Shown: positions 8,213 through 52,699 of the stretch, piece by piece | Layout: each line of letters opens with the position of its first letter | Numbering within the stretch: position 1 is the stretch's first letter | Source of the DNA: Arthrobacter sp. D5-1 | GTDB taxonomy: Bacteria > Actinomycetota > Actinomycetes > Actinomycetales > Micrococcaceae | Direction of reading: 5' to 3' | Assembly (NCBI RefSeq): GCF_017357425.1 | Contig: NZ_CP014572.1 | Span: 248,001 to 312,000, forward strand | Length of the DNA: 64,000 bases | Notes under the pieces: model-generated | The model's input: the letters and a program-made list of their open reading frames with translations, nothing else | Told to the model about the DNA's origin: nothing | Database searches by the model: none | Made by a program: the position numbers and the translations under genes

Positions 8213-8300
8213 TATCCGGTACAGCTTCCGCCCGGACTTTAACGTCTTCGACAGAGATTGATGGCAGGAATGCTCTGTTGAAGACGGGGCTATCCGGTAC
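8213..8300. repeat. Left end of the Tn554-type element
   Basis: TATCCGGTAC occurs at 8213-8222 and again at 8291-8300. Between them lies an inverted repeat with 14-bp arms: CGTCTTCGACAGAG (8243-8256) and CTCTGTTGAAGACG (8273-8286), 13 of 14 pairing. The right end has a palindrome with the same CGTCTTC-AC core. These are good candidates for TnpA/TnpB binding sites. Confidence 0.7.
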
Positions 8301-8410
8301 TCGTCTTCATCGGCCGGTCCGCATCTTTCCCTTCGGTGTTCACTTCTAGTCCCACTCGAATTGGCTTCCGCACATGAAGCTGATGGGGGAGTGGAACGGG
8401 GAGCTGATCT

Positions 8411-9598
8411 ATGGTGCGAGTCCAGCGGGTTCAAAGCGATGGCGCAGAAACCACATGGACAGTTCTCGGAGACGACTTCCTCCCGGTTCCGGAAATTGAG
8501 CTCTACTTCGAGCACCTGAGGCAGACCGGTCATTCCCCCAACACCGTTAAGTCCTACGCACGCTCCCTCTGCTTGTGGTGGGAGTTTCTGGGACTTCGCG
8601 GGCGTGCTTGGGACCACGTAGAACTTGAGGACTTGTCGGCCTTTCTGGCATGGATTCGTACAGGCCTTCCGCCAGAGGTGGTTATCTTTCGCGGGACCGC
8701 CACGTCGTCCCGGATTGCTCCTTCAACTGCTGCCCTGAGGGTTCAGGGCGTGCGCTCCTTCTATGCTTTCCATCAGTGGCGCGGGTACGATTTCGGGTCG
8801 ATTGTCTACTCCGACCGCCCGTCCCGGAGCCCGTATCTGCCGTTTCTGGGTCATACCAGTCGTGGACTGCGCCGCAGCGCTTCGGTAAGTGTCCCGAAGC
8901 GACGGTCCAGCGCTCCTGTCCTGACGGTTCGGCAGATCGACGCGATCAAGGATCACTGTGGTCGGTTCGATCCGAAAAAGAGGGAGTGGAGCGGGTCTGT
9001 CCGGGACCTTTTGCTTTTCACCTTGTTGGAGGAGACCGGGCTTCGGTTGGGCGAGGCACTCAGTTTGCAGCATCGGGACTGGCGTGCCGGGCGTGGGGAG
9101 AACGCCTACCTCGAGGTCGCTCCGCGCGATGACCACCCATACGGGCTGCGGGTCAAGGGCTCCCGATACCGCAAGATCCATATCTCCGATGGCCTGGACA
9201 GGCTCTACGCCGAATACGTCTGGCAGTTGTGCGAAGCCGGCATGGACTTGGCTGTGACGTCCATGGATGAGGCATACGTGTTCGTCAACCTCAGGATGGG
9301 GCATGAGTTCAAGCCCCTGCGGGCAGAGACCGTCTATAAACGCGTCGGGCGCATTCGCAGGGCCCTGGGCTCTGCGGTGCCGCCGGACTGGACGCCTCAT
9401 TGGTTCCGCCACACCCACGCCACGGCAATGCTCCTGGCAGGTGCCCCGCTCCATGTGGTGAGCCGGCGTCTCGGGCACTCTGACGTTCAGACAACCCTGA
9501 ATCTGTACGCCTGGGTCACCGATGACGAGGAACTCCGTTCCCTTGCCGACTGGCGAAGAATGACGAATCGATGGAGAGTCCAGGATGAAATCGGCTGA
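8411..9598 (+). CDS. tnpA: Tyrosine recombinase TnpA of the Tn554 type
   Basis: The 395-residue protein is a tyrosine site-specific recombinase. The SAM-like N-terminal core-binding domain spans about residues 25-135. The catalytic domain shows R212 (TGLRLGEAL), H330-x-x-R333 (HWFRHTHAT), H356 (LGHSDVQTT) and the nucleophile Y366 (LYAWV). Length fits Tn554 TnpA (about 360). GGGGAG precedes the start. Its last 14 bases overlap tnpB. Together with TnpB it would catalyse excision and site-specific insertion. The gene looks intact. Confidence 0.93.
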   Translation: MVRVQRVQSDGAETTWTVLGDDFLPVPEIELYFEHLRQTGHSPNTVKSYARSLCLWWEFLGLRGRAWDHVELEDLSAFLAWIRTGLPPEVVIFRGTATSSRIAPSTAALRVQGVRSFYAFHQWRGYDFGSIVYSDRPSRSPYLPFLGHTSRGLRRSASVSVPKRRSSAPVLTVRQIDAIKDHCGRFDPKKREWSGSVRDLLLFTLLEETGLRLGEALSLQHRDWRAGRGENAYLEVAPRDDHPYGLRVKGSRYRKIHISDGLDRLYAEYVWQLCEAGMDLAVTSMDEAYVFVNLRMGHEFKPLRAETVYKRVGRIRRALGSAVPPDWTPHWFRHTHATAMLLAGAPLHVVSRRLGHSDVQTTLNLYAWVTDDEELRSLADWRRMTNRWRVQDEIG

Positions 9599-12169: not shown

Positions 12170-12592
12170 TCAGTTCGTGCTGTCGGTGAGGTCGTTGTAG
12201 AGGGCCTGCACGCGGGTTTTGATGTCGTCGCGGACCAGGCGCATGCGTTCTATGCCCTCGATACCGCGGGTAGAGGGTTCGTCGGTTTCCCAGATCTCAA
12301 ACCGCTTCCCGGCAGGTGCGTCGAGTTTGGCTTCAGTGCCGAGGACGATGACGGCGTCCACGAGGTTCAGGACCTCGTCGGTGACGGGTTTCGGGTATTC
12401 ACCGGTGACGTCGATGCCCAGCTCCGTCAGTGAGTCCACGGCTTGGCCGTTCAAGGACTCTGCGGGTTTGGTGCCTGCGGAGTAGACGGTGATGTTGTCC
12501 CCGGCGAGGTCGCGCATGAGACCTGCGGCGAGTTGGGATTTGCCGCCGTTCTTGCTGCAGACGAAGAGGACCGCGGGGTGTTCGGTTGTCAT
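12170..12592 (-). CDS. arsC: Arsenate reductase, mycothiol-dependent type
   Basis: A 140-residue protein of the low-molecular-weight phosphatase fold. Its P-loop is CSKNGGKS with C12 as nucleophile, followed by AGTKPAESLN. A lysine (K18) replaces the usual arginine of CX5R. That NGGKSQ form matches the mycothiol-transferase arsenate reductases ArsC1/ArsC2 of Corynebacterium glutamicum, which use mycothiol and mycoredoxin. The cysteine pair of thioredoxin-coupled ArsC is absent, as expected. Its ATG overlaps the upstream stop as TAATG, so it is the last gene of the ars operon. Confidence 0.85.
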   Translation of the reverse strand: MTTEHPAVLFVCSKNGGKSQLAAGLMRDLAGDNITVYSAGTKPAESLNGQAVDSLTELGIDVTGEYPKPVTDEVLNLVDAVIVLGTEAKLDAPAGKRFEIWETDEPSTRGIEGIERMRLVRDDIKTRVQALYNDLTDSTN

Positions 12593-13248
12593 TAGAGGGC
12601 TGCTTCTTTCGTGAGGGAGGCGACCAGGGTTTTGACCCGGTCGTGGATCTGGTCGCGGATGTCCCGGACGGTTTCCAGCGATTGGCCGGCGGGGTCGGTG
12701 AGGTCCCAGTCTTCGTAGCGTTTGCCGGGGTAGATTGGGCAGGAGTCCCCGCAGCCCATGGTGATGACGACGTCGGAAGCCCGGACGACATCATCGGTGA
12801 GCGGTTTGGGGTATTCCTTGCCCAAGTCCAGGCCCATCTCGCTCATCACGGTCACGACGGTCTGGTCCAGTTCGGAGGCCGGGAGGGACCCGGCGGACCG
12901 GACCCGGATCCTGCCTTTGGCTTCGACGTTGAGCAGAGCGGCGGCCATTTGGGACCGGCCGGCGTTCTGGACGCAGACGAATAAAACTTCGGGCACGTCG
13001 GAGACGATGGCGCCCTTGGATTTGGCCAGGGCGTGGAGCCTGTCGTTGGCGAAGTGCTCGGTGGTCGCGGGCAGGTAGGCGCTGATCTTCGCGGTCCTGG
13101 CCAGGGCGGTGTAGGACTCGAAGACGTAGCGTTCGACGGTTTCGGCGGCGAACGTTCCGGCGTAGCGGTCGGCGAGGCGGTTGCTGATCCGGTGCAGGAC
13201 TTCGGTGTTGTCCTGCAGTCCCAGCGTTGTTTCCTGGTGGTCGGTCAT
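12592..13248 (-). CDS. arsC: Arsenate reductase with N-terminal helical domain
   Basis: A 218-residue ArsC. Residues 1-80 form a helical extension seen in actinobacterial ArsC proteins (a three-helix dimerisation domain). The phosphatase-like domain follows, with the loop CVQNAGRS (C92, R98) and the second cysteine motif MGCGDSCP, which supplies the resolving cysteines of a thioredoxin-type cycle. It would reduce arsenate to arsenite in the cytoplasm. It lies 60 bp after arsO and is coupled to the next arsC by TAATG. Confidence 0.88.
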   Translation of the reverse strand: MTDHQETTLGLQDNTEVLHRISNRLADRYAGTFAAETVERYVFESYTALARTAKISAYLPATTEHFANDRLHALAKSKGAIVSDVPEVLFVCVQNAGRSQMAAALLNVEAKGRIRVRSAGSLPASELDQTVVTVMSEMGLDLGKEYPKPLTDDVVRASDVVITMGCGDSCPIYPGKRYEDWDLTDPAGQSLETVRDIRDQIHDRVKTLVASLTKEAAL

Positions 13249-13308
13249 GGCAGTACTCCCTAGGGGTGGGTCCGGCTCGATGATGACTGGCGCTGTGGGT
13301 TGGGTGGG

Positions 13309-14691
13309 TTAGTTGTCGGCGGAGCGTCCGTGGGCCAGCCCGGTCGGGAACCCGACGAACGCTGGTTTGGGTGCCGCGCAGCAACCTCCCTGGGCTTCGG
13401 GCTCCTGCGTGGTGGCTGCGGCCGGGACGTCACAGCTGGTGCCCGCGTCCGCGGAGCAGACCCCGGTTTCGGGCAGTTCCAGGTGCACGGTGTCTGCTGC
13501 TGCTTGGTCACCCGCGAGGGCGGCGGCCACGGAGCGGACCTGTTCGTAGCCGGTGGCCAGCAGGAACGTCGGTGCCCTTCCGTAGGACTTCATCCCGACA
13601 ATGTAGAAGTCCTTCTCCGGGTGCGCCAGAACCTTAGCGCCGTGCGCTGGGACGGTGCCGCAGGAGTGGAATTCCGGGTCGATGAGCGGGCCGAGCTCGG
13701 TGGGGGCTTCCACTGCCGGGTCCAGGTTCAGGCGCAGTTCCCGCAGGACATCCAGATCGGGCCGGAATCCGGTGCAGGGCGCGATGACGTCAGCCTCGAC
13801 GGTGCGCCCGTCCACCGCTTCGACCGTGACGTGCGTGTCGAGGGTTTTCAGGGCGGCGATGCCGAAGCCGGTGTGCAGTTCGATGGTTCCGGCGTCGACC
13901 AGGCGGCGGAGCCGGGAGCCGAGCTGGCCGCGGGCGGGTAGACCGTCGGCGTCTCCGCCGCCGTAGACCTTCTCCGCGGACTCGCCGCGGACGGCCCAGA
14001 GGATCGTGGTGCCGGGTTCTTCCTTGGCCAGTTCGGCGAGGTTGATCAGGGTGTTCGCAGCTGAGTGACCGGCACCGACGACGAGGACGCGGCGGCCGGC
14101 GAACGCGGCACGGTCCCTTCCAATAGCGTCGGGCAGCGGCGAGGAGATCCGGTCAGCTGCGGTGGTCTCGCCGATGGCCGGCAGACCCGAGGTGCCGAGC
14201 GGGTTTCGCGTGGACCAGGTCCCGGAGGCGTCGATGACAGCACCGACGACATGGTCCCGAATCTCGCTGCCGTCGTGCTCAACGCGGACAACGAACGGGG
14301 TGGTGTCACGGTCCCGGACATGGGTTTTGTCCAGCCCAGCGCGGGTGACGGCAATGACGCGGGCGCCAGTCTGGAGCCGGGAGGCGATCTGGGCGGTGGC
14401 GGCCAGCGGGGTGAGGTAGTTGTCGATGAGTTCCCCGCCGTAGGGCAGTGCCGTGGGGCGGGGGGACTCCCACCCGGTGGGTTCGAGCAGGCGCACGGCG
14501 GCGTCGTCGAGGTTGAACCGCCACGGAGAGAACAGCCGGATGTGGCGCCATTGTTCAATGGCGGCACCGGCGGTGGGGCCGGCTTCGAAGATGACCGGTT
14601 CGAGGCCGCGCTCAAGCAAATGTGCCGCGGTGGCCAAACCGATGGGTCCTGCGCCGATTACGGCGACCGGAAGGTTCTTCACTGAATCCAT
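13309..14691 (-). CDS. arsO: ArsO-like flavin monooxygenase with cysteine-rich tail
   Basis: A 460-residue FAD/NAD(P)-dependent oxidoreductase. The FAD-binding glycine motif is VIGAGPIGLATAA near residue 10, and a second dinucleotide motif is VVGAGHSAANTLI near residue 206. It matches the flavin-binding monooxygenases called ArsO that sit beside arsT and arsC in actinobacterial ars clusters, such as the Streptomyces FR-008 plasmid. The substrate of ArsO is not firmly known. The last 50 residues hold scattered cysteines and a CC pair (GGCCAAPK), which may bind arsenite. AGAGGA precedes the ATG. Confidence 0.8.
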   Translation of the reverse strand: MDSVKNLPVAVIGAGPIGLATAAHLLERGLEPVIFEAGPTAGAAIEQWRHIRLFSPWRFNLDDAAVRLLEPTGWESPRPTALPYGGELIDNYLTPLAATAQIASRLQTGARVIAVTRAGLDKTHVRDRDTTPFVVRVEHDGSEIRDHVVGAVIDASGTWSTRNPLGTSGLPAIGETTAADRISSPLPDAIGRDRAAFAGRRVLVVGAGHSAANTLINLAELAKEEPGTTILWAVRGESAEKVYGGGDADGLPARGQLGSRLRRLVDAGTIELHTGFGIAALKTLDTHVTVEAVDGRTVEADVIAPCTGFRPDLDVLRELRLNLDPAVEAPTELGPLIDPEFHSCGTVPAHGAKVLAHPEKDFYIVGMKSYGRAPTFLLATGYEQVRSVAAALAGDQAAADTVHLELPETGVCSADAGTSCDVPAAATTQEPEAQGGCCAAPKPAFVGFPTGLAHGRSADN

Positions 14692-14735
14692 GCTGTCCTC
14701 TGTTCTTTTCCGTTGGTGCGGTTGGTTTCGGGGGT

Positions 14736-14764
14736 GCCTGCCGGTCCTTGTGGGTCCGGCAGGC
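14736..14764 (-). terminator. Hairpin between the cysteine peptide and arsO
   Basis: A 9-bp perfect stem, GCCTGCCGG with CCGGCAGGC, and an 11-base loop lie 15 bases after the stop of the small peptide and 45 bases before arsO. There is no T-run, so it may set relative expression or stabilise the upstream message rather than end it. Confidence 0.5.
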
Positions 14765-14778
14765 CGGGGCTGTGCTGT

Positions 14779-14841
14779 TTAGCAGCAGTCCGGATCGTCC
14801 TCGTCGCAGCAGCCCGTGTCGGTGCAGCACCCGGTGTCCAT
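14779..14841 (-). CDS. 20-residue cysteine-pair peptide in the ars operon
   Basis: A very short frame between arsT and arsO starts with ATG at 14841, ends with TAA at 14779 and has a strong GGAGGGGG sequence about 8 bases upstream. The product is 20 residues with cysteine pairs at 5-6, 11-12 and 19-20 and an acidic segment (DEDD) at 13-16. Six of 20 residues are cysteine. Vicinal cysteine pairs bind arsenite and soft metals, so a metallothionein-like or arsenite-chaperone role is a reasonable inference. I know of no named family. Confidence 0.65.
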   Translation of the reverse strand: MDTGCCTDTGCCDEDDPDCC

Positions 14842-14871
14842 CCAGTTCACCCCCTCCCCGTTACTGAGTGG

Positions 14872-15873
14872 TTAGGCGTGGGTTGGTTCTTCAACCAGTG
14901 CCGTGGCGATGCTGTCGGCATCCTCCAGCGCGACCAGGAACCGTTCGGCGTCCAACGCGGCCGCGCAGCCGGTGCCCGCGGCGGTAATGGCCTGCCGGTA
15001 GCGGTGATCCACCGCATCACCACAGGCGAAGACACCCGAGAGGTTGGTGACCGTGGTGGGTGAGTCGACCTTGATGTAGCCCTCAGCGTCCAGGTCCACC
15101 TGTCCGGTGACCAGTTCGGTGCGGGGCACGTGGCCGATGGCGACGAAGATGCCGGTGGCGGCCTGTTCGCGGGTTTCCCCGGTGCGGGTGTCCGTCAGGG
15201 TCACGCCGGTGACCTTGGTGTCGCCGTGGATCTTGGTGATGGCGGAGTTCCAGGCGAAGGTGATCTTGGGGTTGTCCTTGGCGCGCTGGGCCATGATCCG
15301 GGAGGCCCGGAGTTCGTCCTTGCGGACGACAACAGTGACGGTCCTGGCGAAGCGGGTCAGGAAGGTCGCTTCCTCCATCGCGGAGTCACCGCCGCCGACG
15401 ACGATGATGTCCTGCTCGCGGAAGAAGAACCCGTCGCAGGTCGCGCACCAGGACACACCGTGGCCGCTGAGCTTCTTCTCTTCCGGCAAGCCCAGCTCCT
15501 TGTAGGCGGACCCGGTCGCGAGGATAACGGCAGGTGCTTCGTGCGTGGTACCGGCGCCGGTGACGACACGCTTGAGGTGACCGGTCAGATCAACCTCGGT
15601 GGCGTCGTCGAACACGATCCGGGCGCCGAACTTCTCGGCCTGTTCCTGGAGCCCATCCATCAGCTCCGGGCCCTGGACGCCGCCCGGGAAGCCGGGGAAA
15701 TTCTCTACCTCGGTGGTGTTCATCAACGCGCCACCAGCGGTGACCGAACCGGCCAGGACCAAAGGATTCAACCCGGCCCGGGCAGCATAAATCGCGGCCG
15801 TGTATCCGGCAGGGCCGGAGCCGATGATGATCAGATGTTCTGTCTGGACGTCGGTACTGGCGTCGGTGCTCAC
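14872..15873 (-). CDS. arsT: Thioredoxin reductase (ArsT)
   Basis: A 333-residue NADPH-dependent thioredoxin reductase. It shows the FAD motif [19 protein letters not shown] at about residue 16, the redox-active CATC (in [11 protein letters not shown]), the NADPH motif [12 protein letters not shown], and the C-terminal [15 protein letters not shown]. Length is normal. In ars operons ArsT recycles the electron donor for thioredoxin-coupled ArsC. The start is GTG at 15873, preceded by AGGAGAG. It lies between arsC (33 bp upstream) and the small cysteine peptide. Confidence 0.88.
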
Positions 15874-15906
15874 GGAAGTCTCTCCTGGTGCTCGAAAAAA
15901 GATGGG

Positions 15907-16329
15907 TTACTTGGCGGCCGGGACCAGCGAGGCGATCAGGGCCTCGATGCGGGTCTTGATCTCGTCGCGGATCGGACGGACAGCGTCCACGCCTTGGCCT
16001 GCGGGATCTTCAAGGACCCAGTCCTCGTAGCGCTTGCCGGGGAAGTACGGGCATTCATCGCCGCAGCCCATGGTGATGACGACGTCGGATTCCTTCACGG
16101 CCTCGGTGGTGAGGACCTTGGGGATTTCGGCGGACATGTCGATGCCGAGCTCGGCCATGGCTTCAACGGCGGCTGGGTTGACCTTGTCCGCGGGCTGCGA
16201 GCCGGCGGAACGGACCTCGATGGCCCCTTCGGACAGGGTGGTGAGAAACGCTGCGGCCATCTGGGAACGTCCGGCGTTGTGGACGCAGACGAACAGGACG
16301 GAGGGCTTCTTGGTGGTTTCGGTGCTCAC
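15907..16329 (-). CDS. arsC: Arsenate reductase, thioredoxin-type
   Basis: A 140-residue ArsC with catalytic loop CVHNAGRS (Cys near residue 15) and downstream MGCGDECPYFPGKRYEDW, so all the cysteines of the thioredoxin-coupled mechanism are present. I chose the GTG at 16329 because AGGAG lies 7-11 bases before it. The frame stays open further upstream, but that stretch would run back into the operator region. It is the first gene of the ars operon arsC-arsT-peptide-arsO-arsC-arsC, and two ArsR-type boxes lie 85-140 bp upstream. Confidence 0.88.
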   Translation of the reverse strand: MSTETTKKPSVLFVCVHNAGRSQMAAAFLTTLSEGAIEVRSAGSQPADKVNPAAVEAMAELGIDMSAEIPKVLTTEAVKESDVVITMGCGDECPYFPGKRYEDWVLEDPAGQGVDAVRPIRDEIKTRIEALIASLVPAAK

Positions 16330-16413
16330 GGGGTTTCTCCTGGGATCAGTTGGGTGAGGGGTTGGGAACTCTCTGAATCTCTGTCCGCTCCGTTGCAGCA
16401 GCACCGGCCTGAT

Positions 16414-16468
16414 ATTGATGCTTGTCGATATATGGAGTATCGGACAGTAGATTGATGATTGTCAATAT
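16414..16468 (-). promoter_or_regulatory. Two ArsR-type operators before the ars operon
   Basis: ATTGATGCTTGTCGATAT (16414-16431) and ATTGATGATTGTCAATAT (16451-16468) are near-identical imperfect inverted repeats (ATTGA-N6-TCAAT). The same box occurs before arsR at 18013-18030. On the minus strand TTGACA at 16465-16460 could be the -35 element, with GATACT about 18 bp further on, so the second box overlaps the promoter. ArsR binding would repress until arsenite arrives. Confidence 0.7.
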
Positions 16469-16510
16469 TTAGCTTGGAAGGCTCCCCGTAAGCGCCCGGT
16501 CGTTCTTGGA

Positions 16511-17972: not shown

Positions 17973-18012
17973 TCATCCGCTGACGGAAGCGGCGGGCCGC
18001 TTGCCCGACTAC

Positions 18013-43105: not shown

Positions 43106-43182
43106 TAGTTCAGGTTTTTCTGTACTAAAACCCTTGATGCCGCACGCTCAGCCCCGCCGGTGGCATCAAACGACTATCCCTT

Positions 43183-43326: not shown

Positions 43327-43335
43327 GGATCCCCC

Positions 43336-44160: not shown

Positions 44161-44221
44161 CCCTGGAGGGCGGCACCACTCACCTCGAAGAGGCGCGGCT
44201 TGTCGATCGAAGGGCACGCGG

Positions 44222-45651
44222 CTAACCGATGATCGGTCGCTCTTCGGGAAAGTGGTACAGCTGGCTGCGCTGGCGCAGGGCCAGTGCCGCGGCCAGGGTG
44301 ACAGTGCCGACACGGCCGGCGAACATCAGTGCCGAGAGCACGTACACCCCGGAGGGCGGCAGTTCGGCACTGAGGTTGGTGCTCAGTCCCACGGTGGCGA
44401 AGGCCGAGATGGTCTCGAACAGTACCCTGTCAAGGGAGGCCCCGCTGATCTGCAGGAGCAGGAAGGCGGCGACGGAGACGAGGGTTGCTCCGGCGACGAT
44501 CACCGAGATGGCCACCCGCATGGTGCCTTGGGGGATGGTGCGGCCGTAGACCTTCACGTCGGCATCGCCGCGTGCTTCGGCCACGATGGCCAGGAACATG
44601 ACGGCGATGGTGGTCACCTTGATGCCGCCGGCCGTGGACGCCGAGCCACCGCCTGCGAACATGAGCGCGTCGGTGAGGAGCATCGTGGTCGATTCCATCT
44701 GGTTCTGGTCCACCAGGTTGAACCCGCCCGAGCAGGTCATGACGGAGGCAAAGAGCGAATGGATGACCTTCTCCCCGCCCCTAAGTTGCCGATGGTCCGG
44801 ACGTTGTCCCATTCCTTGACGGCCCACAGGACCGTGCCTGCGCCGAGCAGGATGAGGGAGACCTGGATGGTGAGCTTGGTGTGGAGGTTCCACTTCTTCC
44901 AGTTGAGCCCGTTTTGCTGGAGCACCATGACCACGGGGAAGCCGAGGCTGCCCAGGAAAACGCCCAGCATCAGCGGAACCAGGATCCAGAGGTCGGTTTC
45001 ATAAGGGACGATTCCGTCGGAGTGCGGTGTGAACCCCGCGTTGTTGAAGGATGAGATGGAGTAGAAGACGCCGTGCCACACGGCCTGCCAGAACGGTTCG
45101 CCCAGGACCAGGAAGCGGGGGGTCAGGGCCAGGGCCAGTACCGCTTCGATGACCACGGAGGTCACGATGACGATCCGCAGCAGCGCACCAACTTCACCGA
45201 GCCTTCCGGCGTTGTTCATGGCTTCCTGGGCGATGAGCTTGCCGCGCACGCCCAGGCGCTTGCTGACCATGAGGGCCAGCAACGAGGCCAGGGTCAAGGT
45301 ACCGAGTCCTCCAACGAAGATGCCCACCAGGATGACGAGTTGGCCGAAGAAAGACCAGTGCGTGGCCGTTGATACCACGGTCAGGCCGGTGACGCACACG
45401 CTGGAAACGGCCGTGAACATGGCCTGGTGTAAGGGTGTTCGCTCGCCGGACGCGGCGGACGCGGGCAGGGACAGCAACCCGGTAAAGAGCAGAATCACCA
45501 CCACAAAGGCGCTGAAGGCGAGGCGGGCCGGGGAGGTGTTGGCGATGTTGTCGATGAGGTCGCGCAGCCCGGTCAGGATTCCCGCTCCCTCGTGGTCCGG
45601 CGCACCGGGCCCGCGGGTGGCGGGCTTGGGCCTTGACTGGTTCCGGGCCAT
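44222..45651 (-). pseudogene. TrkH/KtrB-type potassium transporter, single frameshift
   Basis: Two frames together encode a complete TrkH/KtrB protein. The first runs from ATG 45651 (AAGGGA 6 bases before) through VSSVCVTGLTVVST (first P-loop) and SISSFNNAGFTPHS (second) to TIGNLG. The second continues EKVIHSLFASVMTCSGGFN (third filter) and AFATVGLSTNL (fourth), to 44222. The switch is at the C-run at about 44769-44780, where one base seems lost. It could be a real mutation or a sequencing error. It is convergent with the M23 gene. Confidence 0.82.
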
Positions 45652-45773
45652 GGGCATTCCCTTGATTGGCGGGGCGATGAAGGTTTGGGGACTCTGGGGC
45701 CGGACGTTAGAGGTTCCACTTCGTGCAGGGCGGCCAGCGGCAGCGGGACTCCGGCCGCGTGCCCGGGGTCTTC

Positions 45774-46427
45774 CTAGAACCCGGAGGTGCCAATGAACAC
45801 GTGTAGGAAGGCGAAGAAGATGGTCGCGGCGGCGGCCACGTAGAGCAGGGCCGTGATGATCCAGCCGGACTCGGCCACGATGCGAGCGGCCCGGGCGGGT
45901 ATCTTGATGATTCCGTGTGTGAGGTTCCGGGCCGTGACCCAGACGAAGAGGGGAATCATCGCCGCCCAGACGATCATGCAGAAGGGGCAGAGGATGTGGA
46001 TCGAGTACAGGGCCTGGGACCACAGCCACACAACAAAGGCAAAACCAAGCGTGACGCCGGCTTGGAGCCCTGCCCAGTACCAGGGCGCGAAGGTGGCTCC
46101 GGAGAGCAGTGCCATGCCGGTGGTGATGATGACAGCGAACGCCACGATCCCGATGAACATGTTGGGGAAGCCGAACACTGAACTCTGCCAGGTCTGCATG
46201 ACCTGGCCGCAGGAAATCCACGGATTGACGTCGCAGACGGTTTGGTATCCGGGGTCTTTGAGTACTTCGAGTTTCTCCAACACCAAGGCGCCGGATGCCA
46301 GCCAGCCGATGACCCCGGTGATGAGCAGGAGCCAGCCAAGAGGCTTCTCACGGGTCAAACGGGGAGACTGCGGTGCGATGGATCCGGCAGCTTTCACGGT
46401 CGCAGTGGGTGGTGGGGTGATGGTCAT
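45774..46427 (-). CDS. Vitamin K epoxide reductase (VKOR) family protein
   Basis: A 217-residue membrane protein with five helices and the VKOR cysteines: CDVNPWISC in the first external loop and CPFC in helix 4 (HILCPFCMIVW). Actinobacterial VKOR replaces DsbB: it re-oxidises DsbA-like proteins using menaquinone. A matching DsbA-like protein is at 34459. It is followed downstream by the trkH start, and lies 44 bp after the ResA-like gene. Confidence 0.9.
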   Translation of the reverse strand: MTITPPPTATVKAAGSIAPQSPRLTREKPLGWLLLITGVIGWLASGALVLEKLEVLKDPGYQTVCDVNPWISCGQVMQTWQSSVFGFPNMFIGIVAFAVIITTGMALLSGATFAPWYWAGLQAGVTLGFAFVVWLWSQALYSIHILCPFCMIVWAAMIPLFVWVTARNLTHGIIKIPARAARIVAESGWIITALLYVAAAATIFFAFLHVFIGTSGF

Positions 46428-46470
46428 GGGGAGGGAGTCCTTTGGGTCGGATTCATGGTGGGCCTTGTGT

Positions 46471-47082
46471 TCAGGATCCGGTCGCGGCGGAGGTGATCAG
46501 TGCTTTCAGGGTTCCTTTTTGGGAGACTCCGAGGATCCGGGCACTGACGCGGCCTTCTGTGTCGAGCACGAGGGTGGTGGGTACCGCGCGGGGCGGGACG
46601 TACTCTGTCATTGCCAGCAGAACACCGCCGTCGCTGTCATCTATGCTGGGATACTGCACGTTGAAGGTCCGTTCGAAGGCTGCCGCAGTTGCGGCATCGT
46701 CGCGGACGTTGACCCCGAAGAACAGCACGCCCTTGTCCTTGAATTCGGTGTGGAGGGCGGCCAGGTCCGGCGCCTCGACCCGGCAGGGTGCGCAAGCTGC
46801 ATACCAGAAGTTGAGGACCACGACCTTGCCGGCCCAGTCCTGGGCAGAAACCTTCTCGCCGTTGAAGAGCTGGCCTTCCAGGGAGACCCGGGACCCGCGT
46901 GATGCGGGTGGGTATTCGTTCACGGACCCGTCGCCGGCGATGTAGTTCTTGTCATCTCCGGCCTTGGCCTGCTCAGCCAGATCGTCCTGGCCTGCACAGC
47001 CGGCGAGGGCGATTATTGCCGCGCCCAGGCCCAGGACGGTGCGGCGGCGGGGTCGCCGGTGCGCTGGTGGTTGACTGCTCAT
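46471..47082 (-). CDS. TlpA/ResA-like thiol-disulfide lipoprotein
   Basis: A 203-residue lipoprotein with lipobox LAGC (Cys29) after a twin-basic N terminus (HRRPRRRT). The thioredoxin fold starts at about residue 65, with the active site CAPC in NFWYAACAPCRVEAPDL. ResA/TlpA proteins reduce apocytochrome c cysteines before haem attachment and take electrons from CcdA, which is encoded 45 bp upstream. Together with resB it makes most of a System II set. Confidence 0.87.
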   Translation of the reverse strand: MSSQPPAHRRPRRRTVLGLGAAIIALAGCAGQDDLAEQAKAGDDKNYIAGDGSVNEYPPASRGSRVSLEGQLFNGEKVSAQDWAGKVVVLNFWYAACAPCRVEAPDLAALHTEFKDKGVLFFGVNVRDDAATAAAFERTFNVQYPSIDDSDGGVLLAMTEYVPPRAVPTTLVLDTEGRVSARILGVSQKGTLKALITSAATGS

Positions 47083-47127
47083 GAGGTTGTCCTTGCTTTT
47101 CGTATCAGAGGTCCGGAGTGGACGTGC

Positions 47128-47877
47128 CTAGACGGGCATCAGGAACGTTCCGGCAAGGTTCTGCAGTTGGTAGATCCATTGCACCCACAAGCCGGACACC
47201 ATCAGCACGCCCAGAATGATGAGCATGACGGCGCCGCCGATGTTCACGGCCCTGATGTGCCTGCGCACCACGGCCAGGACCTTTGATACCCAGTTCAGGC
47301 CCAGGGCCACGAAGACGAAGGGGACGCCCAGGCCAAGGCAGTAGACAAAGGCCAGCAGGGCCCCGCGCCAGGCGCTTCCTGCGGTGACGCTCAGGCTGAG
47401 GACGGCGCTGAGTGTCGGGCCCATGCAGGGGGTCCAGCCCAGGCCGAAGACGATTCCGAGCAGCGGTGCACCGGTGAGCCCGTTGCGGCCGGGGAGCTGG
47501 AATTTCCGGGTTTGTTGGAGCCAGGAAAACCGTCCGAGCAGCACCAGTCCCATGAGGATGACCACGATCCCCAGGCCCCTCATGAGGGGGTCCTGCCAAC
47601 GGATCAGCCATGACCCGATGGCTCCGAAAGCCGCCCCGTACAGGGTGAACACGGCACCGAAGCCCAGAATGAACAGTGCAACGCCGGTAAGGACACGTCG
47701 TCTGTTGCGCGGTTGGGTCGGGTCCGTAAGCCCGGAGACGAAGCCCAGGTAGCCGGGAACCAACGGAAGAATGCAGGGCGAGAGGAAGGACACCAGGCCT
47801 GCCACGGCTGCCAGGGGCAGTGCCAGGACCAGGGCGCCGGAGGTCACCGTCGAGGCAAAGTACTCACCGATGTCCAC
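47128..47877 (-). CDS. ccdA: CcdA-type thiol-disulfide transporter
   Basis: A 249-residue, six-helix membrane protein of the DsbD/CcdA family. The two redox cysteines are in SFLSPCILPLVPGYLGF (helix 1) and GWTPCMGPTLSAVL (helix 4). It carries reducing power from cytoplasmic thioredoxin to the external ResA-like protein. GTG or ATG starts near 47877 leave 3 bp to the upstream lspA stop, so the genes form one operon. Confidence 0.92.
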   Translation of the reverse strand: MDIGEYFASTVTSGALVLALPLAAVAGLVSFLSPCILPLVPGYLGFVSGLTDPTQPRNRRRVLTGVALFILGFGAVFTLYGAAFGAIGSWLIRWQDPLMRGLGIVVILMGLVLLGRFSWLQQTRKFQLPGRNGLTGAPLLGIVFGLGWTPCMGPTLSAVLSLSVTAGSAWRGALLAFVYCLGLGVPFVFVALGLNWVSKVLAVVRRHIRAVNIGGAVMLIILGVLMVSGLWVQWIYQLQNLAGTFLMPV

Positions 47878-47880
47878 CGC

Positions 47881-48375
47881 TCAGGGCCTTTCTTCCGAGG
47901 CCCGGGCAGGGGTGCGGATGGATCCGAGTACCAGCAGGCCGACTCCACCGGTGATGAAGACATCGGCAAGGTTGAAGGTCGGGAACCATCCGGTGTGCAG
48001 GTAGTCAACGACTCCTGCCCCGTCCATCCGGTCCACCAGGTTCCCGACGGCGCCGCCGAGCAGGAGGGCCGCTCCGGCCCGGGACATCCGGTTGAATCCG
48101 GGAGCCGCCCGGTACAGGTAAACGGCCAGCACCGTCACGATTGCTGCGGTCGCGGCGACGACAATCCACGGGGATAAGGTGGCGCCAAGGCTGAACGCGA
48201 CACCGGTGTTGTACGCGAGCCGGAGATTAAATACCCCGTAGTCAAGGACTCGGCCATCAGCCATCGTGATCACGACGATGGACTTGACCAGCAAGTCGCC
48301 CAACGCCAAACCAGCGACAGCCAGCGCCATTGCGGCACGCACCGGGAGCAAGGTCTTGGTTTCCTGGCCCCTCAC
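47881..48375 (-). CDS. lspA: Signal peptidase II (LspA), second copy
   Basis: A 164-residue LspA with YNTGVAFSLG, GNLVDRMDGAGVVDYLHTGW and FNLADVFI, so both catalytic aspartates are present. It closely matches the copy at 31662 in these blocks, including the unusual VVDYLHTGW. Its neighbours here are lipoprotein and thiol-redox genes, and a CmtR-like regulator heads the operon. Its start overlaps the stop of the thioredoxin-like gene (ATGA). Confidence 0.9.
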   Translation of the reverse strand: MRGQETKTLLPVRAAMALAVAGLALGDLLVKSIVVITMADGRVLDYGVFNLRLAYNTGVAFSLGATLSPWIVVAATAAIVTVLAVYLYRAAPGFNRMSRAGAALLLGGAVGNLVDRMDGAGVVDYLHTGWFPTFNLADVFITGGVGLLVLGSIRTPARASEERP

Positions 48376-48689
48376 GCCTCCTGACCTGACTCGAGCATGG
48401 CTGCCAGCAACGACCCAAAAGCCGGCACTCCTGCCATTTTTCCAGCGGAAGGGTATACGCGGCAGCTCACTGCGGGAACTGGGACCACCGGAAACAGATC
48501 TTTTCCGGCGGCGATAAACGACGAAGAACCCTGAAAGCCCAGTTCCTGCGCATCGCGCTCAGAGGTGACGACACGGACACGTAGACGCTTCACCGGCAGC
48601 CCCGCAGCTTCCAGGGCGCTGCGAAACAGACTCAGCGCCGGGACAGTATTCGGACAGCCCTCAATGACCCGTAGTTCGTAATCGGTCAT
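48372..48689 (-). CDS. Small thioredoxin-like protein
   Basis: A 105-residue protein with VIEGCPNTVPAL at the N terminus (one catalytic-type cysteine, C11), a central loop SSSFIAAGKDLFP and a second cysteine in AVSCRVYPS. It belongs to the small thioredoxin-fold proteins found near mercury, arsenic and cadmium genes. A deleted relative is at 18993. The reaction is unknown; thiol transfer is a guess. Confidence 0.65.
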   Translation of the reverse strand: MTDYELRVIEGCPNTVPALSLFRSALEAAGLPVKRLRVRVVTSERDAQELGFQGSSSFIAAGKDLFPVVPVPAVSCRVYPSAGKMAGVPAFGSLLAAMLESGQEA

Positions 48690-48692
48690 GGC

Positions 48693-49088
48693 CTAGCCGT
48701 TCCTCCCGAGCGAAGCCGGAGCCGGACGGACCGGATCGGTGTCGAGCGGGCCGTCAAACGGCAGGCCAGGCACTCCTCCGCCGGGAGCGCAGCAGGCAGG
48801 GTCCACAGCCAGAACGACGCCCAAAAGGTCAGTGATGGCATGGCCCAGCCTGGCATCGGCTAGCTCGTACCGCATCCGCCGCCCGTCCGGGACTGCCACT
48901 ACCAATCCGCAGCCGCGAAGGCAGGTCAGATGATTGGACATGCTCTGCCGTGAAACCGACAGCGACTCAGCGAGGCCGGACGGGTAGCCCGGAGCTTCGG
49001 AAAGTGCCAGCAGAATCCTGGCCCTGGTGGGATCCGAGACCGCGTAGCCGAACCGTGCGAGCACCGGGGCGTGCGTGAGGGTTTCCAT
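48693..49088 (-). CDS. CmtR-like ArsR/SmtB metal sensor
   Basis: A 131-residue repressor with SRQSMSNHLTCLRGCGL (C56, C60) and a later CC pair (C99, C100), the CmtR metal site. Similarity to the regulator at 36062 is high across the winged helix. It starts the operon regulator, thioredoxin-like protein, lspA, ccdA, ResA-like, VKOR. A palindrome lies 11 bp upstream. Confidence 0.87.
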   Translation of the reverse strand: METLTHAPVLARFGYAVSDPTRARILLALSEAPGYPSGLAESLSVSRQSMSNHLTCLRGCGLVVAVPDGRRMRYELADARLGHAITDLLGVVLAVDPACCAPGGGVPGLPFDGPLDTDPVRPAPASLGRNG

Positions 49089-49098
49089 GATCCAAAAT

Positions 49099-49114
49099 TA
49101 CATTCATCGATGTA
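49099..49114 (-). promoter_or_regulatory. Operator of the lspA-ccdA operon
   Basis: TACAT-TCATCG-ATGTA is a 5-6-5 inverted repeat just upstream of the CmtR-like gene. It has the same spacing as the operator at 36467-36482 but a different sequence. Confidence 0.55.
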
Positions 49115-49160
49115 TCCACGCAATTATGTACCTTCGCCGGTCAGGCCCAGAGGGCCGCGG

Positions 49161-50399
49161 TCAGGCCTGGACGAGCAGCCCCGTGGCAAACATAATGCCA
49201 AGGCCGAGGATGATACCGGCGCTGCCCAGCGGGGTGAGTACCTTGCCGGTGCGGTCCTTCATCATCGGCAGGATCTTGAGCGCGACCTGGGCGACGGCTC
49301 CCGCTCCAAGCCCCAGAAGGAACGCCGAGAGTGCGGGCTGGGTGACGGTGGCTCCGATGAGAGCACCGGCGATGGCGGGTGCTCCGGCGATCAAGCCGAG
49401 TACCGCGAGCCGGCCCAGGCGTGCGGGTTCCTTGGCCAGCGGTGTGACGATCGCGAGGCCTTCGGTGGTGTTATGGATGGCGAAACCGACAATCAGCGTC
49501 GCCCCGAGGGCCAGCGATCCCACCGCATACGCGGAGCCGATCGCCAACCCTTCGCCGAGGTTGTGCAGACCGATGCCGATGGCGATAAGCAGGGCCAACC
49601 GACGCGGCGGCAGGGCTGCGGGCTGTCCTGTGCTGCTCAGGTCTTGGTGCCGGCGCATCCATGCATCGGTGCCTTCGAGCACCAGGTACGCGACGAGGGC
49701 GCCAAGGAACACCACCAGGGGTCCGCCGAACGCACCGCTCCCGGTGACGAGTTCCATGCCTTCAAGGGTGGCGTCGATGGCGAGGAAGGCCAGGAGCCCG
49801 ACCGTGACACCGAGCAGGAGCCGGATCCAAGAGGCGGAGGAGCGGCGGATGAACGGCATCCACAACATGCCCAAAGCCACCGGGATCACGCCGACGTAGA
49901 TTCCGAGCAGCGTCATCAGTCCGAAGAACGAGGTGCCGCGTTCAGGGCTGAGTGCCGCTGCGCCGACGGTAATGGGGATCTTGCCGCCGATGGAGGTCAC
50001 GAGGGCGATCTCGTAGGGGTCCCCGTCCACCCAGTGGTAGCTGATGGTCAGCGTCGTTGTTTCGAGCGGGGCCATGGTTTCGCGGGTCTGGGTGAAGCCC
50101 GCGTAGTAGTCCGAGACATTCACCTGGGCGATGGTGACAGGGTCCGGGCCTTCGTTGCGGGCAGTGACCTGGATCTGGCCGGGCAGGAAGCGGACGTCTT
50201 CGACGGCGATCTCTTCCTTGGGCGGGATGCCTTCTGACAGCTTCGCCAACCCGGGTCCGTTCAGTAGGGCGAACACAGCCATCAGGACAACGATAAGGAC
50301 CAGCGGCCCCAAGCCCAGCAACCAGCCGGGCGCCGACGGTCGCCTGCCGCCGGGCGGGGTGGGTGGAGTTGTTGTCGTGGCTTTTTCCTCGATGCTCAT
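49161..50399 (-). CDS. ZIP-family metal transporter with external domain
   Basis: A 412-residue protein. Helix 1 is followed by an external beta domain (about residues 60-145, with TARNEGPDPVTIAQVNV), then seven or eight helices with the ZIP metal sites: HNLGEGLAIGSAYA (helix 4) and HNTTEGLAI (helix 5). ZIP proteins usually import divalent metals. It overlaps the multicopper oxidase gene by four bases (ATGA), so the two act as a unit. Confidence 0.82.
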   Translation of the reverse strand: MSIEEKATTTTPPTPPGGRRPSAPGWLLGLGPLVLIVVLMAVFALLNGPGLAKLSEGIPPKEEIAVEDVRFLPGQIQVTARNEGPDPVTIAQVNVSDYYAGFTQTRETMAPLETTTLTISYHWVDGDPYEIALVTSIGGKIPITVGAAALSPERGTSFFGLMTLLGIYVGVIPVALGMLWMPFIRRSSASWIRLLLGVTVGLLAFLAIDATLEGMELVTGSGAFGGPLVVFLGALVAYLVLEGTDAWMRRHQDLSSTGQPAALPPRRLALLIAIGIGLHNLGEGLAIGSAYAVGSLALGATLIVGFAIHNTTEGLAIVTPLAKEPARLGRLAVLGLIAGAPAIAGALIGATVTQPALSAFLLGLGAGAVAQVALKILPMMKDRTGKVLTPLGSAGIILGLGIMFATGLLVQA

Positions 50400-51523
50400 G
50401 CCGGGCTCACCTCGAAGAAGCCCATCCAGCCGAGTTCGGCGAACTCGGTCTTGTGGGCGTGGAACATGAATTTGCCGGGGTAAGGGAACCGGATTTCCAC
50501 GATGCCCCGCTGGCCCTGCACCTGCGAAATGGTGTCCGTGAACTCGCTCGGCGTCAGCATGGTCCCGGTGGGGTAGTAGTGGAAGAAATTGCCATGCACG
50601 TGGAAGGAATTGATGGGGTCGTACTCGAGCACGTTGATCAGGTGGATCCGCACCAGCGCGTTCTGCTTCACCTGCACGGGGAAGTCCATGAAGTGGAACG
50701 GCAGGCCGTTGACGGAATAGAACTCGTTGTCGTCCCCGCCATCGGTGTTGTAGCCGTTCATCACCATGACCATCTCGTCATCGGCCGCCGGCCGCCCCTC
50801 TTTGGGTTCGATGATGAATCCGCCATAGAGGCCTTTGGCGATGTGGGGTGCCAGCGGTGACTGGTGGCAATGGTAGAGGTGGGTTCCGAAAGGTGTGGCG
50901 TCGAATTCGTAGGTAAAACTCTGCCCCGGCGCGATGGAGCCGGCGCCGATGCCGGGCGTGCCGTCCATTTCCGCACGGTGGACGCCGTGGAAGTGCATGG
51001 TGTGCGGGTGCGCTCCGGCATTGGTGAAGTGGATGCGCAGCAAGTCTCCTTCCCGCGCCCAGAGCGTGGGCCCGGGGATCCGTCCGTTGTAGCTCCACCC
51101 CGGGAAGGTCACTCCGGGCGCGATCTCGAAGTCCTTATCCACGGCCACGATGTCCCACTCCCGCAACGTCCGTCCGTCCGGAAGGGTGCTGGTCTTTCCC
51201 CTGTCGAAGTCCCGCAGGATAGCGGTGGGGTCGATCCCGGCCCGGCCGACCGGGACGGATCCGCCTGCGAAGCCGGCGTGGCCGGCATGGCTCATGGAAG
51301 TGGCGCCAGCCGCAGGAGGAGTAGTGGCCGCGGCCGGGCCGCCGGTGGATTCTCCACGGGCGGTGCTCTGAGCGGGAGTGCCGTGACCGGAGTGCGGTCC
51401 CGTGCCGCCGGTCTGGGCCTCAAGAGGTACCAGTGACGAGAAAGCCGGCACTGCGGCGAGGGCTGCGGCGCCGGAGATCATCGACCGCCGGCTAAGCAGC
51501 TTCTCCAGACTGAATTTCGGCAC
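50396..51523 (-). CDS. Two-domain multicopper oxidase
   Basis: A 375-residue exported enzyme with a signal sequence (SRRSMISGAAALAAVPAFSS) and a His/Met-rich segment (GPHSGHGTP, SMSHAGHAG). Domain 1 has HTMHFHGVH and YHCHQSPLAPHI. Domain 2 has FHVHGNFFHYY and FMFHAHKTEFAELGW. The T1 cysteine motif HCH is in domain 1, while domain 2 has HAH instead. This is the type-C arrangement of two-domain laccases, active as trimers. It may oxidise Cu(I) or Mn(II) for the ZIP partner. Confidence 0.88.
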   Translation of the reverse strand: MPKFSLEKLLSRRSMISGAAALAAVPAFSSLVPLEAQTGGTGPHSGHGTPAQSTARGESTGGPAAATTPPAAGATSMSHAGHAGFAGGSVPVGRAGIDPTAILRDFDRGKTSTLPDGRTLREWDIVAVDKDFEIAPGVTFPGWSYNGRIPGPTLWAREGDLLRIHFTNAGAHPHTMHFHGVHRAEMDGTPGIGAGSIAPGQSFTYEFDATPFGTHLYHCHQSPLAPHIAKGLYGGFIIEPKEGRPAADDEMVMVMNGYNTDGGDDNEFYSVNGLPFHFMDFPVQVKQNALVRIHLINVLEYDPINSFHVHGNFFHYYPTGTMLTPSEFTDTISQVQGQRGIVEIRFPYPGKFMFHAHKTEFAELGWMGFFEVSPA

Positions 51524-51557
51524 GCCGACTCCTATATTTCAACGCTGAAAACAATAT

Positions 51558-51575
51558 TGTTAGCCAAGGCTAACA
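51558..51575. promoter_or_regulatory. DtxR/MntR-type operator
   Basis: TGTTAGCC-AA-GGCTAACA is an 8-2-8 perfect inverted repeat in the 82-bp spacer between the divergent oxidase and regulator genes. It resembles iron/manganese boxes (TTAGC-GCTAA) of DtxR-family repressors. Confidence 0.75.
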
Positions 51576-51605
51576 TTCTTGGCCGCGTCAAAGTAGCATG
51601 AAGCA

Positions 51606-52280
51606 ATGCTCGTATCCGACCTGTCCACCTCAGCCCAGGACTACCTAAAAGTGATCTGGACCGCCACGGAATGGTCCGCAACCCCCATTACCGTCAGCGC
51701 CATAGCCGAACGCCTGGGGGTTCGCCCCCCCACAGTGTCGGACGGGATTAAAAAGCTCGCCGCACAGAACCTGGTCACGCACGCCCCCTACGGCAGCATC
51801 GAACTAACCACCGAGGGCCGCAAACATGCTGTCGCCATGGTCCGCAGGCACCGTCTTCTGGAGACCTTCCTCGTGCAGGTTCTCGGGTATGGCTGGGACG
51901 AGGTCCATGAGGAGGCTGAAATCCTTGAACATGCCGTATCGGACAAGCTCATCGAGCGCATCGACCAACGCTTGGGCCATCCCGCCCGTGATCCCCACGG
52001 CGACCCGATCCCCGCTCCCGAGGGGCAGCAGTACAAGCCAGTCGGGACCCAGCTCTCAGCCGCTGCAGCAGGCAGCACAGTGACCGTGACTCGTATTTCC
52101 GATGCTGACCCTGAACTGTTGCGCTACTTCACGGAACTGGGTCTTACGCCGGATGCAGAGTTGTCCATTCAGGAGCATCGGCGGTTTGCGGATCTCACCA
52201 CGATCCGTCTCCGCGGCCAGGAGCAGAACATCGACCTGGGGGCTTCGGCGTCGGAGGCGATCTGGGTCGTAGCCGTCTAG
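51606..52280 (+). CDS. DtxR/MntR-family metal-dependent repressor
   Basis: A 224-residue regulator. The winged helix (about 1-65) contains SAIAERLGVRPPTVSDGIKKL. The dimerisation/metal domain (about 66-140) shows RHRLLETFLVQVLGYGWDEVHEEAEILEHAVSD in pieces typical of the family: RRHRLLE, EVHEEAE and HPARDPHGDPIP. A C-terminal FeoA/SH3-like domain follows. It probably controls the divergent oxidase-ZIP pair through the palindrome at 51558 in response to Mn or Fe. Confidence 0.87.
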   Translation: MLVSDLSTSAQDYLKVIWTATEWSATPITVSAIAERLGVRPPTVSDGIKKLAAQNLVTHAPYGSIELTTEGRKHAVAMVRRHRLLETFLVQVLGYGWDEVHEEAEILEHAVSDKLIERIDQRLGHPARDPHGDPIPAPEGQQYKPVGTQLSAAAAGSTVTVTRISDADPELLRYFTELGLTPDAELSIQEHRRFADLTTIRLRGQEQNIDLGASASEAIWVVAV

Positions 52281-52699
52281 GCAACTTGGGCGGCAATGGA
52301 CGAGCCGGCTTTGCTGAGAAGCTTCATCCCGGATTGTGTGCTGTTGCCCGTTCCGACGTCGAGCCTCCCGTCCCCGGACGGTCTCTAGCTCACGTCTCAA
52401 TCGGGCGGGGGCCAGTTGCGGCTACAGACCAGCCCGACACTGGCACAGTTTCCCTTCCACGGCCCAACGGCGTCAGGCACCGTCAGCGGGAAGGACACTG
52501 ATACCGCTGCCCCTTGAAACGACGATGCAGTCCAGGACTCCTGGTGCACCAGCTGCCAATGGTCCGACTCGGAAACGGCACAGTCTCCGACGCAGACCGG
52601 CCGCGAGGACTGAGCCGTACCAGACACATCGTTGAGGACGCGTCTTCAACGATGTCAACTGCAGGAATGATGGTAGAGGCGCCCCGAATACCGGATAAT
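52281..52699. repeat. Right end of the Tn554-type element, non-coding
   Basis: There is no gene in these 420 bp. A palindrome with 15-bp arms (14 pairing) spans 52626-52655, centred on GGACG|CGTCTTC. TACCGGATA at 52689-52697 is the reverse complement of the left-end TATCCGGTA. GCAGGAATG (52661-52669) also appears at the left end (8264-8272). These shared parts mark the end of the element and likely recombinase sites. Confidence 0.65.

Follow-up and report, generated by a model that had tools for sequence, protein, structure and literature searches.

The 64-kb window of Arthrobacter sp. D5-1 analysed here (the whole stretch, bases 248001-312000 of contig C2) contains a 44.5-kb element that divides an SRAP gene (YedK/HMCES-type) at a Pro-Ala codon pair, and we consider it highly probable that this element is a Tn554-related site-specific transposon of an actinobacterial, SRAP-devoted lineage, integrated into SRAP on a probable plasmid. 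An earlier note on this DNA had proposed a Tn554-type element splitting one SRAP gene, and the proposal was borne out by the ends, by the cores at the junctions, by uncut loci and by the use of the same codons in all eight elements seen on both sides. The genome consists of three contigs (5.12 Mb), and C2, a 316-kb replicon (316,012 bases) of this Arthrobacter-group genome, is probably a plasmid because its SRAP region matches Paenarthrobacter and Arthrobacter plasmid records, in a search of plasmid records only. A family search of the genome for SRAP found one complete gene, the uninterrupted chromosomal copy on C1, and two pieces on C2, which correspond to positions 1-103 of the Pfam family PF02586 (at 7901-8212) and to positions 102-214 (from 52700). 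The split point lies directly ahead of the catalytic Glu (motif PA-x-G-Y-Y-E-W). In the relevant passages of PMC9436759, Glu105 and His160 are the residues that matter most, besides Cys2, for abasic-site cross-linking by YedK; the INAR, YYEW and HDR motifs were equated with those of YedK Asn75, Glu105 and His160 by motif, without alignment. Because the insertion parts Cys2 and INAR (Asn) from YYEW (Glu) and HDR (His), the split plasmid SRAP is very probably inactive.

The element spans 8212-52698, or 8212-52704 with its footprint. The 44.5-kb insert described earlier is upheld, and its boundaries, first placed at 8213..52699, shift by a few bases. Its ends, previously recognized as inverted repeats, are perfect over 10 bp, with TACCGGATAA occurring exactly at 8212-8221 (-) and 52689-52698 (+) and no further exact copy in the 64-kb window. 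Two more copies with one mismatch are present, at 8290-8299 (left end) and at 63131 (outside the element), and at least four matches with at most one mismatch were reached in 1 of 100 shuffles. The left junction reads ...ATCTT, core GCCTGC, TTATCCGGTAC, and the right junction reads TACCGGATAA, core TCCCGC, CGAGGGCTAC. The two SRAP halves had been thought to fit together at Pro-Ala; the site was correctly identified, but both halves carry the codon pair, with synonymous differences (GCCTGC at 8206-8211 and TCCCGC at 52699-52704), leaving a 6-bp footprint instead of a clean join. One of the two cores is surplus, and under the Tn554/SE model the right core, TCCCGC, would be the imported one; no nearly identical uncut allele was found from which the left core could be assigned to the target. 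The T at 8212 looks like the last base of the left Ala codon (GCT) but belongs to the element as its first base, and a T of this kind opens 5/5 forward elements. Inside the left end, the subterminal inverted repeat is a possible candidate for a recombinase or TnpC site, while GA[AG]GACGCGTCTTC was found near the right end in 4/8 both-sided elements, the window element among them. An end repeat about 79 bp apart was considered as a family mark and rejected; it was present in 19/72 loci and misses the window element, whose second copy begins with C.

In order to examine the junction, the N-terminal half (7901-8211) and the C-terminal half (52705-53098) were compared by BLAST with 34 SRAP loci that are not cut at this point, some of them being partial or worn genes themselves. 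Both halves were matched by 31 of the 34 loci (L001, L128 and L129 did not match both), and with 8212-52704 left out, 30 of these 31 rows, equivalent to 28 of 29 distinct loci since two genes occur twice among them, were exactly colinear across the junction, as expected if relatives carry a continuous SRAP gene. This count allows for alignment ends trimmed by BLAST, and the sole non-colinear row, L142, is one base off. The three loci most similar to the C-half (OM7, G483 and G372; 87.8-93.4% identity) are also among the four most similar to the N-half (84.6-85.9%), and identities to the two halves correlate over the 31 rows (Spearman 0.47, p 0.008). The best match to the N-half, the Paenarthrobacter ureafaciens AT plasmid pA (86.8%), is merely middling for the C-half (82.9%). 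The comparison therewith fits an origin of both halves from one allele, as the single-insertion reading supposes, and does not prove it. The right flank of the element matched six of the 31 rows, representing four loci. The clearest empty site is on pA, where an intact SRAP gene is followed by the same DUF2188 gene as in the window, and umuC and umuD start 1.3 kb after SRAP.

Insertion at these codons recurs in other genomes (genomes and fetched loci are given by our G and L numbers). In a scan of 206 genomes of the genus, TnpA was matched in 33 at E 1e-25, and every tnpA copy of 55% identity or more (9/9) is inserted at these SRAP codons (G000, G464, G334, G460, G466, G503, G390 and two in G472), so that the flanks of close relatives are indeed SRAP halves; the count leaves out one more match, of 69 residues, where a contig of G460 breaks off. 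By contrast, 0/22 fetched loci of lower identity (L186 and L188-L208, part of the weak matches of the scan) had SRAP within 1.5-kb flanks. A wider scan covered a collection of 84,980 species, from which the best 80 of 287 confirmed relatives were kept; six of these (L045-L050, four of them genomes also in the genus count) adjoin SRAP pieces, one (L051) adjoins umuD, and 73, several of which are short contigs with little flank, adjoin neither at E 1e-3. In total, ten further tnp-bearing insertions were found at the same Pro-Ala codons, seven of them seen on both sides. Counting the window element, the both-sided junctions comprise four forward insertions (the window, G334, Arthrobacter sp. ISL-95 and a Frankiaceae metagenome-assembled genome) and four in reverse (ISL-65, G390, G503 and NicSoilB8 copy 1); junctions in CM16, Plantibacter flavus and NicSoilB8 copy 2 were seen on one side, and further C-side junctions lacking a TnpA match occur in G361, G363 and G341. 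The cores differ between the two sides in 6/8 both-sided elements, every core has the form N-CC-N-GC, and tnpA starts about 175-222 bp inside the left end. In a TnpA tree of 33 rows, nine SRAP insertions and one umuD insertion form a clade with support 100/100, and forward and reverse insertions both occur within this 10-row clade. The NicSoilB8 TnpA, whose reading frame is broken, was left out of the tree, and G298 (L037) and a degenerate copy in G464 (L166) were excluded from the site count as unclear. Plasmid pNicSoilB8 holds a second, decayed element copy at another SRAP gene (L212 4920-6034).

The earlier note had described the target as a DNA-damage gene. SRAP is such a gene, but a short conserved DNA word seems to be what is targeted, and other genes flank more distant relatives. 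The 5.1-Mb host genome has exactly two occurrences of CCNGCNNANGRNTAYTWYGAR, a word drawn from the codons of SRAP and umuD: one in the chromosomal SRAP gene and one in the right SRAP half of the window. The reversed control of this word does not occur (0). Intact umuD genes in the fetched loci carry CCGGCNCAGGACTAYTTTGA at their own Pro-Ala codons, and in Arthrobacter sp. GMC3 (L051; L029 7603-7965) an element joins umuD at these codons with an N-CC-N-GC core, seen on one side; its right end was not found. A near-match of umuD to the SRAP word would explain this insertion. Two other loci, L207 and L208, were rejected as umuD targets and not counted, their elements lying upstream of umuD with the motif intact. 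Outside the SRAP clade, the genes next to the elements, read on the left side only, include IstB, a GmrSD-like nuclease and an M78 peptidase (Pfam), and IS110, IS66 and a serine recombinase (by eye). Given such flanks in the wider family and the resemblance of umuD to the SRAP word, the data are better explained by recognition of a conserved DNA word than by a bias towards repair genes, and targeting of DNA-damage genes for their function was rejected. In the window itself, the cluster beside SRAP (53216-58905) encodes a DUF2188 protein, a Y-family polymerase and an ATP-dependent DNA ligase, and a umuD-like Pro-Ala word lies within it near 57618 (-).

The order tnpA-tnpB-tnpC at the start of the element, noticed previously, was confirmed: the three genes are co-directional at the left end (8411-12161) and encode two Phage_integrase proteins and a DUF6262 protein. 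Tyrosine recombinases share the catalytic pattern R-HxxR-H-Y, and these residues were present in the alignments of both recombinases, with TnpA R212, H330-x-x-R333, H356 and Y366 invariant among 6 aligned sequences and TnpB R390, H513-x-x-R516, H539 and Y548 invariant among 5. Taken with a 6-bp footprint without target duplication, with terminal inverted repeats TTATCCGGTA / TACCGGATAA (the family being expected to have imperfect ones) and with a fixed target site of one SRAP codon pair, these features identify the element as a member of the Tn554 family sensu lato, in a branch of the known class of actinobacterial Tn554-related elements that is specific to SRAP. Tn554 itself has tnpA-tnpB-tnpC and uses radC (att554) as its target; the target here is SRAP, and radC, the target of particular Tn554 members, is not taken as defining the wider class. 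When TnpB was used in tblastn searches, 280 plasmid records were matched, including 32 from Staphylococcus and 34 from Enterococcus, the latter two groups with 24-37% identity over part of TnpB among the matches listed.

Going by the relevant passages of PMC10214605, the window element and Tn554 of Staphylococcus agree in the types of genes present, in inserting at a specific site, in leaving a 6-bp footprint and in having imperfect inverted ends. The window element differs from Tn554 in its SRAP target, in its cargo of about 40 kb, mostly metal/redox genes, in a TnpB of 711 amino acids, and in belonging to a clade with insertions in both orientations. Van Houdt et al. 2012 (PMC3414803) described actinobacterial Tn554-related transposons on plasmids and chromosomes of Actinobacteria; these pair a normal tyrosine recombinase with an abnormally long one and in most cases also encode a protein related to TnpC. 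The window element shares this recombinase pair and a TnpC-like protein; the passages concerned give no target genes or element ends, and the words SRAP and umuD are absent from the text of that paper. Among the literature matches listed, with subscription papers and preprints outside the scope, none reports the SOS gene SRAP as a Tn554 target; the "Srap" of the SE and GInt elements is, in the part of PMC10214605 that treats it, an auxiliary protein unrelated to the SOS gene.

Between its ends, the element contains an arsenic module and a metal/redox block. The arsenic module encodes three LMWP-type (ArsC-like) proteins, a flavoprotein oxidoreductase, a thioredoxin-reductase-like protein, an aquaporin, an ArsR-type regulator, a GNAT protein and an SBF-family transporter, which we take to be Acr3-like. 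The metal/redox block encodes an AAA protein, a 1632-amino-acid DUF4082/DMFA2_C protein, an E1-E2 P-type ATPase with LspA, CopC, a DsbA-like protein, a cation efflux protein, CopD/CtaG, ResB, SURF1, an M23 peptidase, a TrkH piece, VKOR, a TlpA-like protein, a CcdA/DsbD-like protein, a second LspA, a multicopper oxidase and a DtxR-type regulator, as well as a ZIP-like protein below the Pfam cut-off whose counterpart is called ZIP in Paenarthrobacter AT5. The 1632-residue protein (23979-28877, -) has a DMFA2_C domain, Ig-like domains and four DUF4082 stretches, and is kept in the metal/redox block of several plasmids. The TrkH match (44222-44893, -) covers the C-terminal part only, in an open reading frame (ORF) of 223 amino acids, and its AT5 counterpart is a 1431-bp TrkG gene; the window copy looks shortened or broken. 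At 20420-20800, between the two modules, inspection by eye showed a remnant, apparently broken, that looks like the beginning of a MerR-type regulator and probably marks the module boundary.

The element was correctly described as unusually large. The seven both-sided relatives span about 4.0, 5.2, 5.3, 5.6, 6.5, 7.0 and 11.3 kb, and the window element is about four times the largest of them. Large cargo is not unprecedented, because the nic-catabolic transposon of pAO1-type Arthrobacter plasmids has catabolic cargo between Tn554-like recombinases (PMC10494377); it comes from the same host group, and its target and ends are absent from the passages concerned. The claim that a whole metal and redox island is carried by the element holds in that the metal cargo lies between the ends, but the block (20.9-52.4 kb) is also found on four Arthrobacter/Paenarthrobacter plasmids: Paenarthrobacter AT5 and Arthrobacter ZXY-2 have plasmids in which it is colinear and 87-90% identical, and on Rue61a and TC1 it is rearranged, with 72-84% identity along much of it. 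On this comparison, the block is a common plasmid asset that now lies between the element's ends.

Several observations weigh against a Tn554-related transposon that arrived with its present cargo. The left flank of SRAP (7300-7900) matched 0/31 rows and is not syntenic with the uncut sites. The assignment of TnpC was made by position and DUF6262 alone, and NCBIfam gave no Tn554 name for tnpA, tnpB or tnpC, only general recombinase matches below cut-offs. The right end of the Frankiaceae element is GATAG instead of GATAA. No other element combining both ends with such cargo came to light, and a family of large SRAP-inserted elements for metal resistance is a putative one, the window copy alone having both ends and metal cargo of such size. 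Finally, no tnpABC was detected near the block on the 41-48-kb plasmid stretches read (two tnpC matches had E above 0.5 only), and with the block present on the AT5 and ZXY-2 plasmids, it could have been captured separately.

The chief alternative builds on this last point: a small Tn554-type element (4-11 kb) would have entered SRAP first, the block of about 31.4 kb would have joined later by homologous or other recombination, and the 44.5-kb unit would never have moved whole. We regard this course of events as a serious contender, though an improbable one on balance. It is consistent with the short spans of the relatives and with the colinear copies, free of tnpABC on the stretches read. It is also consistent with AT5, where about 8 kb separate the end of the block from the umuC region that the window shares and a weak match to the SRAP N-terminus lies nearby. 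Near the left border of the block (20825-20837) the subterminal motif recurs with two mismatches, which would also agree, though at chance level, the number of such matches being reached in 21 of 100 shuffles. However, the end of the block, at 52363 by comparison with AT5 or 52528 with ZXY-2, is close to the subterminal repeat of the element at 52626, and no copy of TACCGGATAA with at most one mismatch lies inside the cargo. In addition, G341 has metal/redox genes (68-78% identity, in another order) beside a decayed right end and a decayed SRAP C-half, which suggests that the association with SRAP may not be a single recent accident; in this draft assembly no SRAP N-half, no TnpA or TnpB match and no tnpABC were found.

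An SE- or GInt-type element or an integrative and conjugative element (ICE), in place of a Tn554-type transposon, is very improbable. According to the passages of PMC10214605 on these elements, SE and GInt use two catalytic tyrosine recombinases together with an auxiliary coiled-coil protein, and a 6-bp footprint is left by SEs, features that would suit the window element. Nevertheless, they own a fourth gene (tfp/ginC), and here the three-gene operon, in which tnpA and tnpB overlap by 14 bp, leaves no room for a gene of the Tfp/GinC recombinase fold between them. Three tyrosine recombinases in a row, as in RIT elements, are likewise not present, the third gene encoding a DUF6262 protein without an integrase match. 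No relaxase or mating-pair family scored above the cut-off among the 36 cargo ORFs scanned with Pfam (not every ORF), and a below-cut-off TraF match of the DsbA-like cargo protein is a thioredoxin-fold relation. Least credible of all is an ordinary plasmid rearrangement or insertion sequence (IS) event that split SRAP with tnpABC as bystanders, for which the IS110 transposase upstream of the SRAP N-half (5936-7030, -) and the non-syntenic left flank could be cited, but which is at odds with the perfect inverted repeats, with a 6-bp core placed precisely at each junction, and with the recurrence of insertions at these codons in many genomes, where tnpA lies about 175-222 bp inside the left end.

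For the Tn554-related transposon that we favor, we propose that TnpA and TnpB, helped by the small TnpC, would act on the 6-bp core N-CC-N-GC in the Pro-Ala codons, linking the target to the ends TTATCCGGTA and TACCGGATAA. In the Tn554/SE model, as the passages of PMC10214605 present it, six bases of the donor's left flank travel along and are left as a footprint on the right. One side of the element would keep the core from its previous donor site. Hopping from SRAP to SRAP would fit, because the imported core is again a Pro-Ala core, like that of another SRAP gene. Insertion would inactivate the SRAP gene entered, with the host keeping its uninterrupted chromosomal one. Movement would involve a circular, probably copy-out intermediate, the element may still be active, and the whole 44.5 kb may have moved as one unit.

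Besides the Pro-Ala site, insertions split SRAP at two further motifs of its active site, GHV-HDR and K-x|INAR; in pA numbering, the three break places are at INAR Asn79, YYEW Glu109 and HDR His172. The GHV-HDR insertions belong to a distant TnpABC lineage, which in G466 and G403 has a TnpA of 397, a TnpB of 838 and a TnpC of 187-188 amino acids, its TnpA being about 26-30% identical to that of the window. Its ends, TTATCTGGGG/TTATCTAGGGG (TTATCT...), with 6-bp cores such as GCCACG or GGCACG, follow the same design as in the window, and in G303 and G463 both sides of the insertion lie within one fetched stretch. The K-x|INAR insertion was found in ISL-95, ISL-65 and plasmid pTC2 with the common end TTCTCTGCACTAACT; its recombinase gave a weak TnpA match only, and in ISL-95 one SRAP gene has both the INAR and the Pro-Ala insertion. 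The elements of G390 and G503, inserted in an SRAP gene closer to the chromosomal type, themselves carry an uninterrupted SRAP gene with GLLAGDGYFEW, Ala-Gly replacing Pro-Ala. Relatives of this variant in eight other genomes have LAG, LVG, IPS or IPG at the site. The carried SRAP is an attractive, putative target-insensitive replacement, but its codons GCA GGC form N-CC-N-GC on the other strand, which counts against insensitivity, and the IPS and IPG variants hold the word one base out of register.

These observations suggest, tentatively and with somewhat less than even confidence, that SRAP is a landing gene shared by at least three independent site-specific lineages, each at the DNA of a different catalytic motif (...|INAR, PA|xGYYEW and GHV-HDR), because only such codons stay constant enough across replicons, and that some elements bring an Ala-Gly, target-insensitive SRAP that replaces the destroyed function. 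What keeps the proposal below an even chance is that the Ala-Gly codons keep N-CC-N-GC on the other strand and that the INAR lineage is a putative one. Coordinates of the features are collected in Table 1.

Table 1. Features of the split SRAP gene and its element in the window, and loci of other SRAP insertions and carried variants
Feature	Position	Strand	Basis
SRAP N-terminal half, codons 1-103 plus two bases, with Cys2 and INAR motif	7901..8211	+	PF02586, junction analysis
Left 6-bp core GCCTGC, part of Pro-Ala codons	8206..8211	+	N-CC-N-GC core in relatives
Left element end TTATCCGGTA	8212..8221	+	junction reading, repeat search
Direct repeat TATCCGGTAC, left end	8213-8222 and 8291-8300		
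Subterminal inverted repeat CGTCTTCGACAGAG / CTCTGTTGAAGACG	8243..8286	not assigned	
tnpA, tyrosine recombinase, 395 amino acids	8411..9598	+	Phage_integrase domain (Pfam)
tnpB, long tyrosine recombinase, 711 amino acids	9585..11720	+	Phage_integrase domain (Pfam)
tnpC-like, DUF6262, 146 amino acids	11721..12161	+	PF19776
Arsenic module	12170..20352	not assigned	Pfam; similar ars cluster on other Arthrobacter plasmids
Metal/redox block, ~31.4 kb	20920..52363	not assigned	Pfam, names in AT5
Right subterminal palindrome ACATCGTTGAGGACGCGTCTTCAACGATGT	52626..52655	not assigned	
Right element end TACCGGATAA	52689..52698	+	
Right 6-bp core TCCCGC	52699..52704	+	
SRAP C-terminal half, from third base of Ala codon, with YYEW and HDR motifs	52705..53098	+	PF02586, junction analysis
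GHV-HDR insertion loci	L155 3762-13944; L156 3041-17474; L157/L158, L159, L161		
INAR insertion loci	L045 852-9712; L046 ~16900; L175 (pTC2) ~2730		
Carried SRAP variants of the G390 and G503 elements	L026 7149-7853; L168 6767-7453		

Overall, the actinobacterial Tn554-related class, for which the PMC3414803 passages concerned state neither targets nor ends, gains a concrete rule, namely that the 6-bp core sits within the SRAP Pro-Ala codons and that the ends read TTATC.... This rule makes empty sites predictable, allows elements in other genomes to be delimited, and explains the repeated destruction of an abasic-site protection gene on soil plasmids; in the window, it describes a mobile carrier that now has arsenic, copper and zinc resistance genes between its ends. 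Most interesting is that insertions converge on the active-site codons of a single gene, and if it is true that several lineages converge on these codons and that some bring a replacement, the target choice of site-specific elements would become testable.

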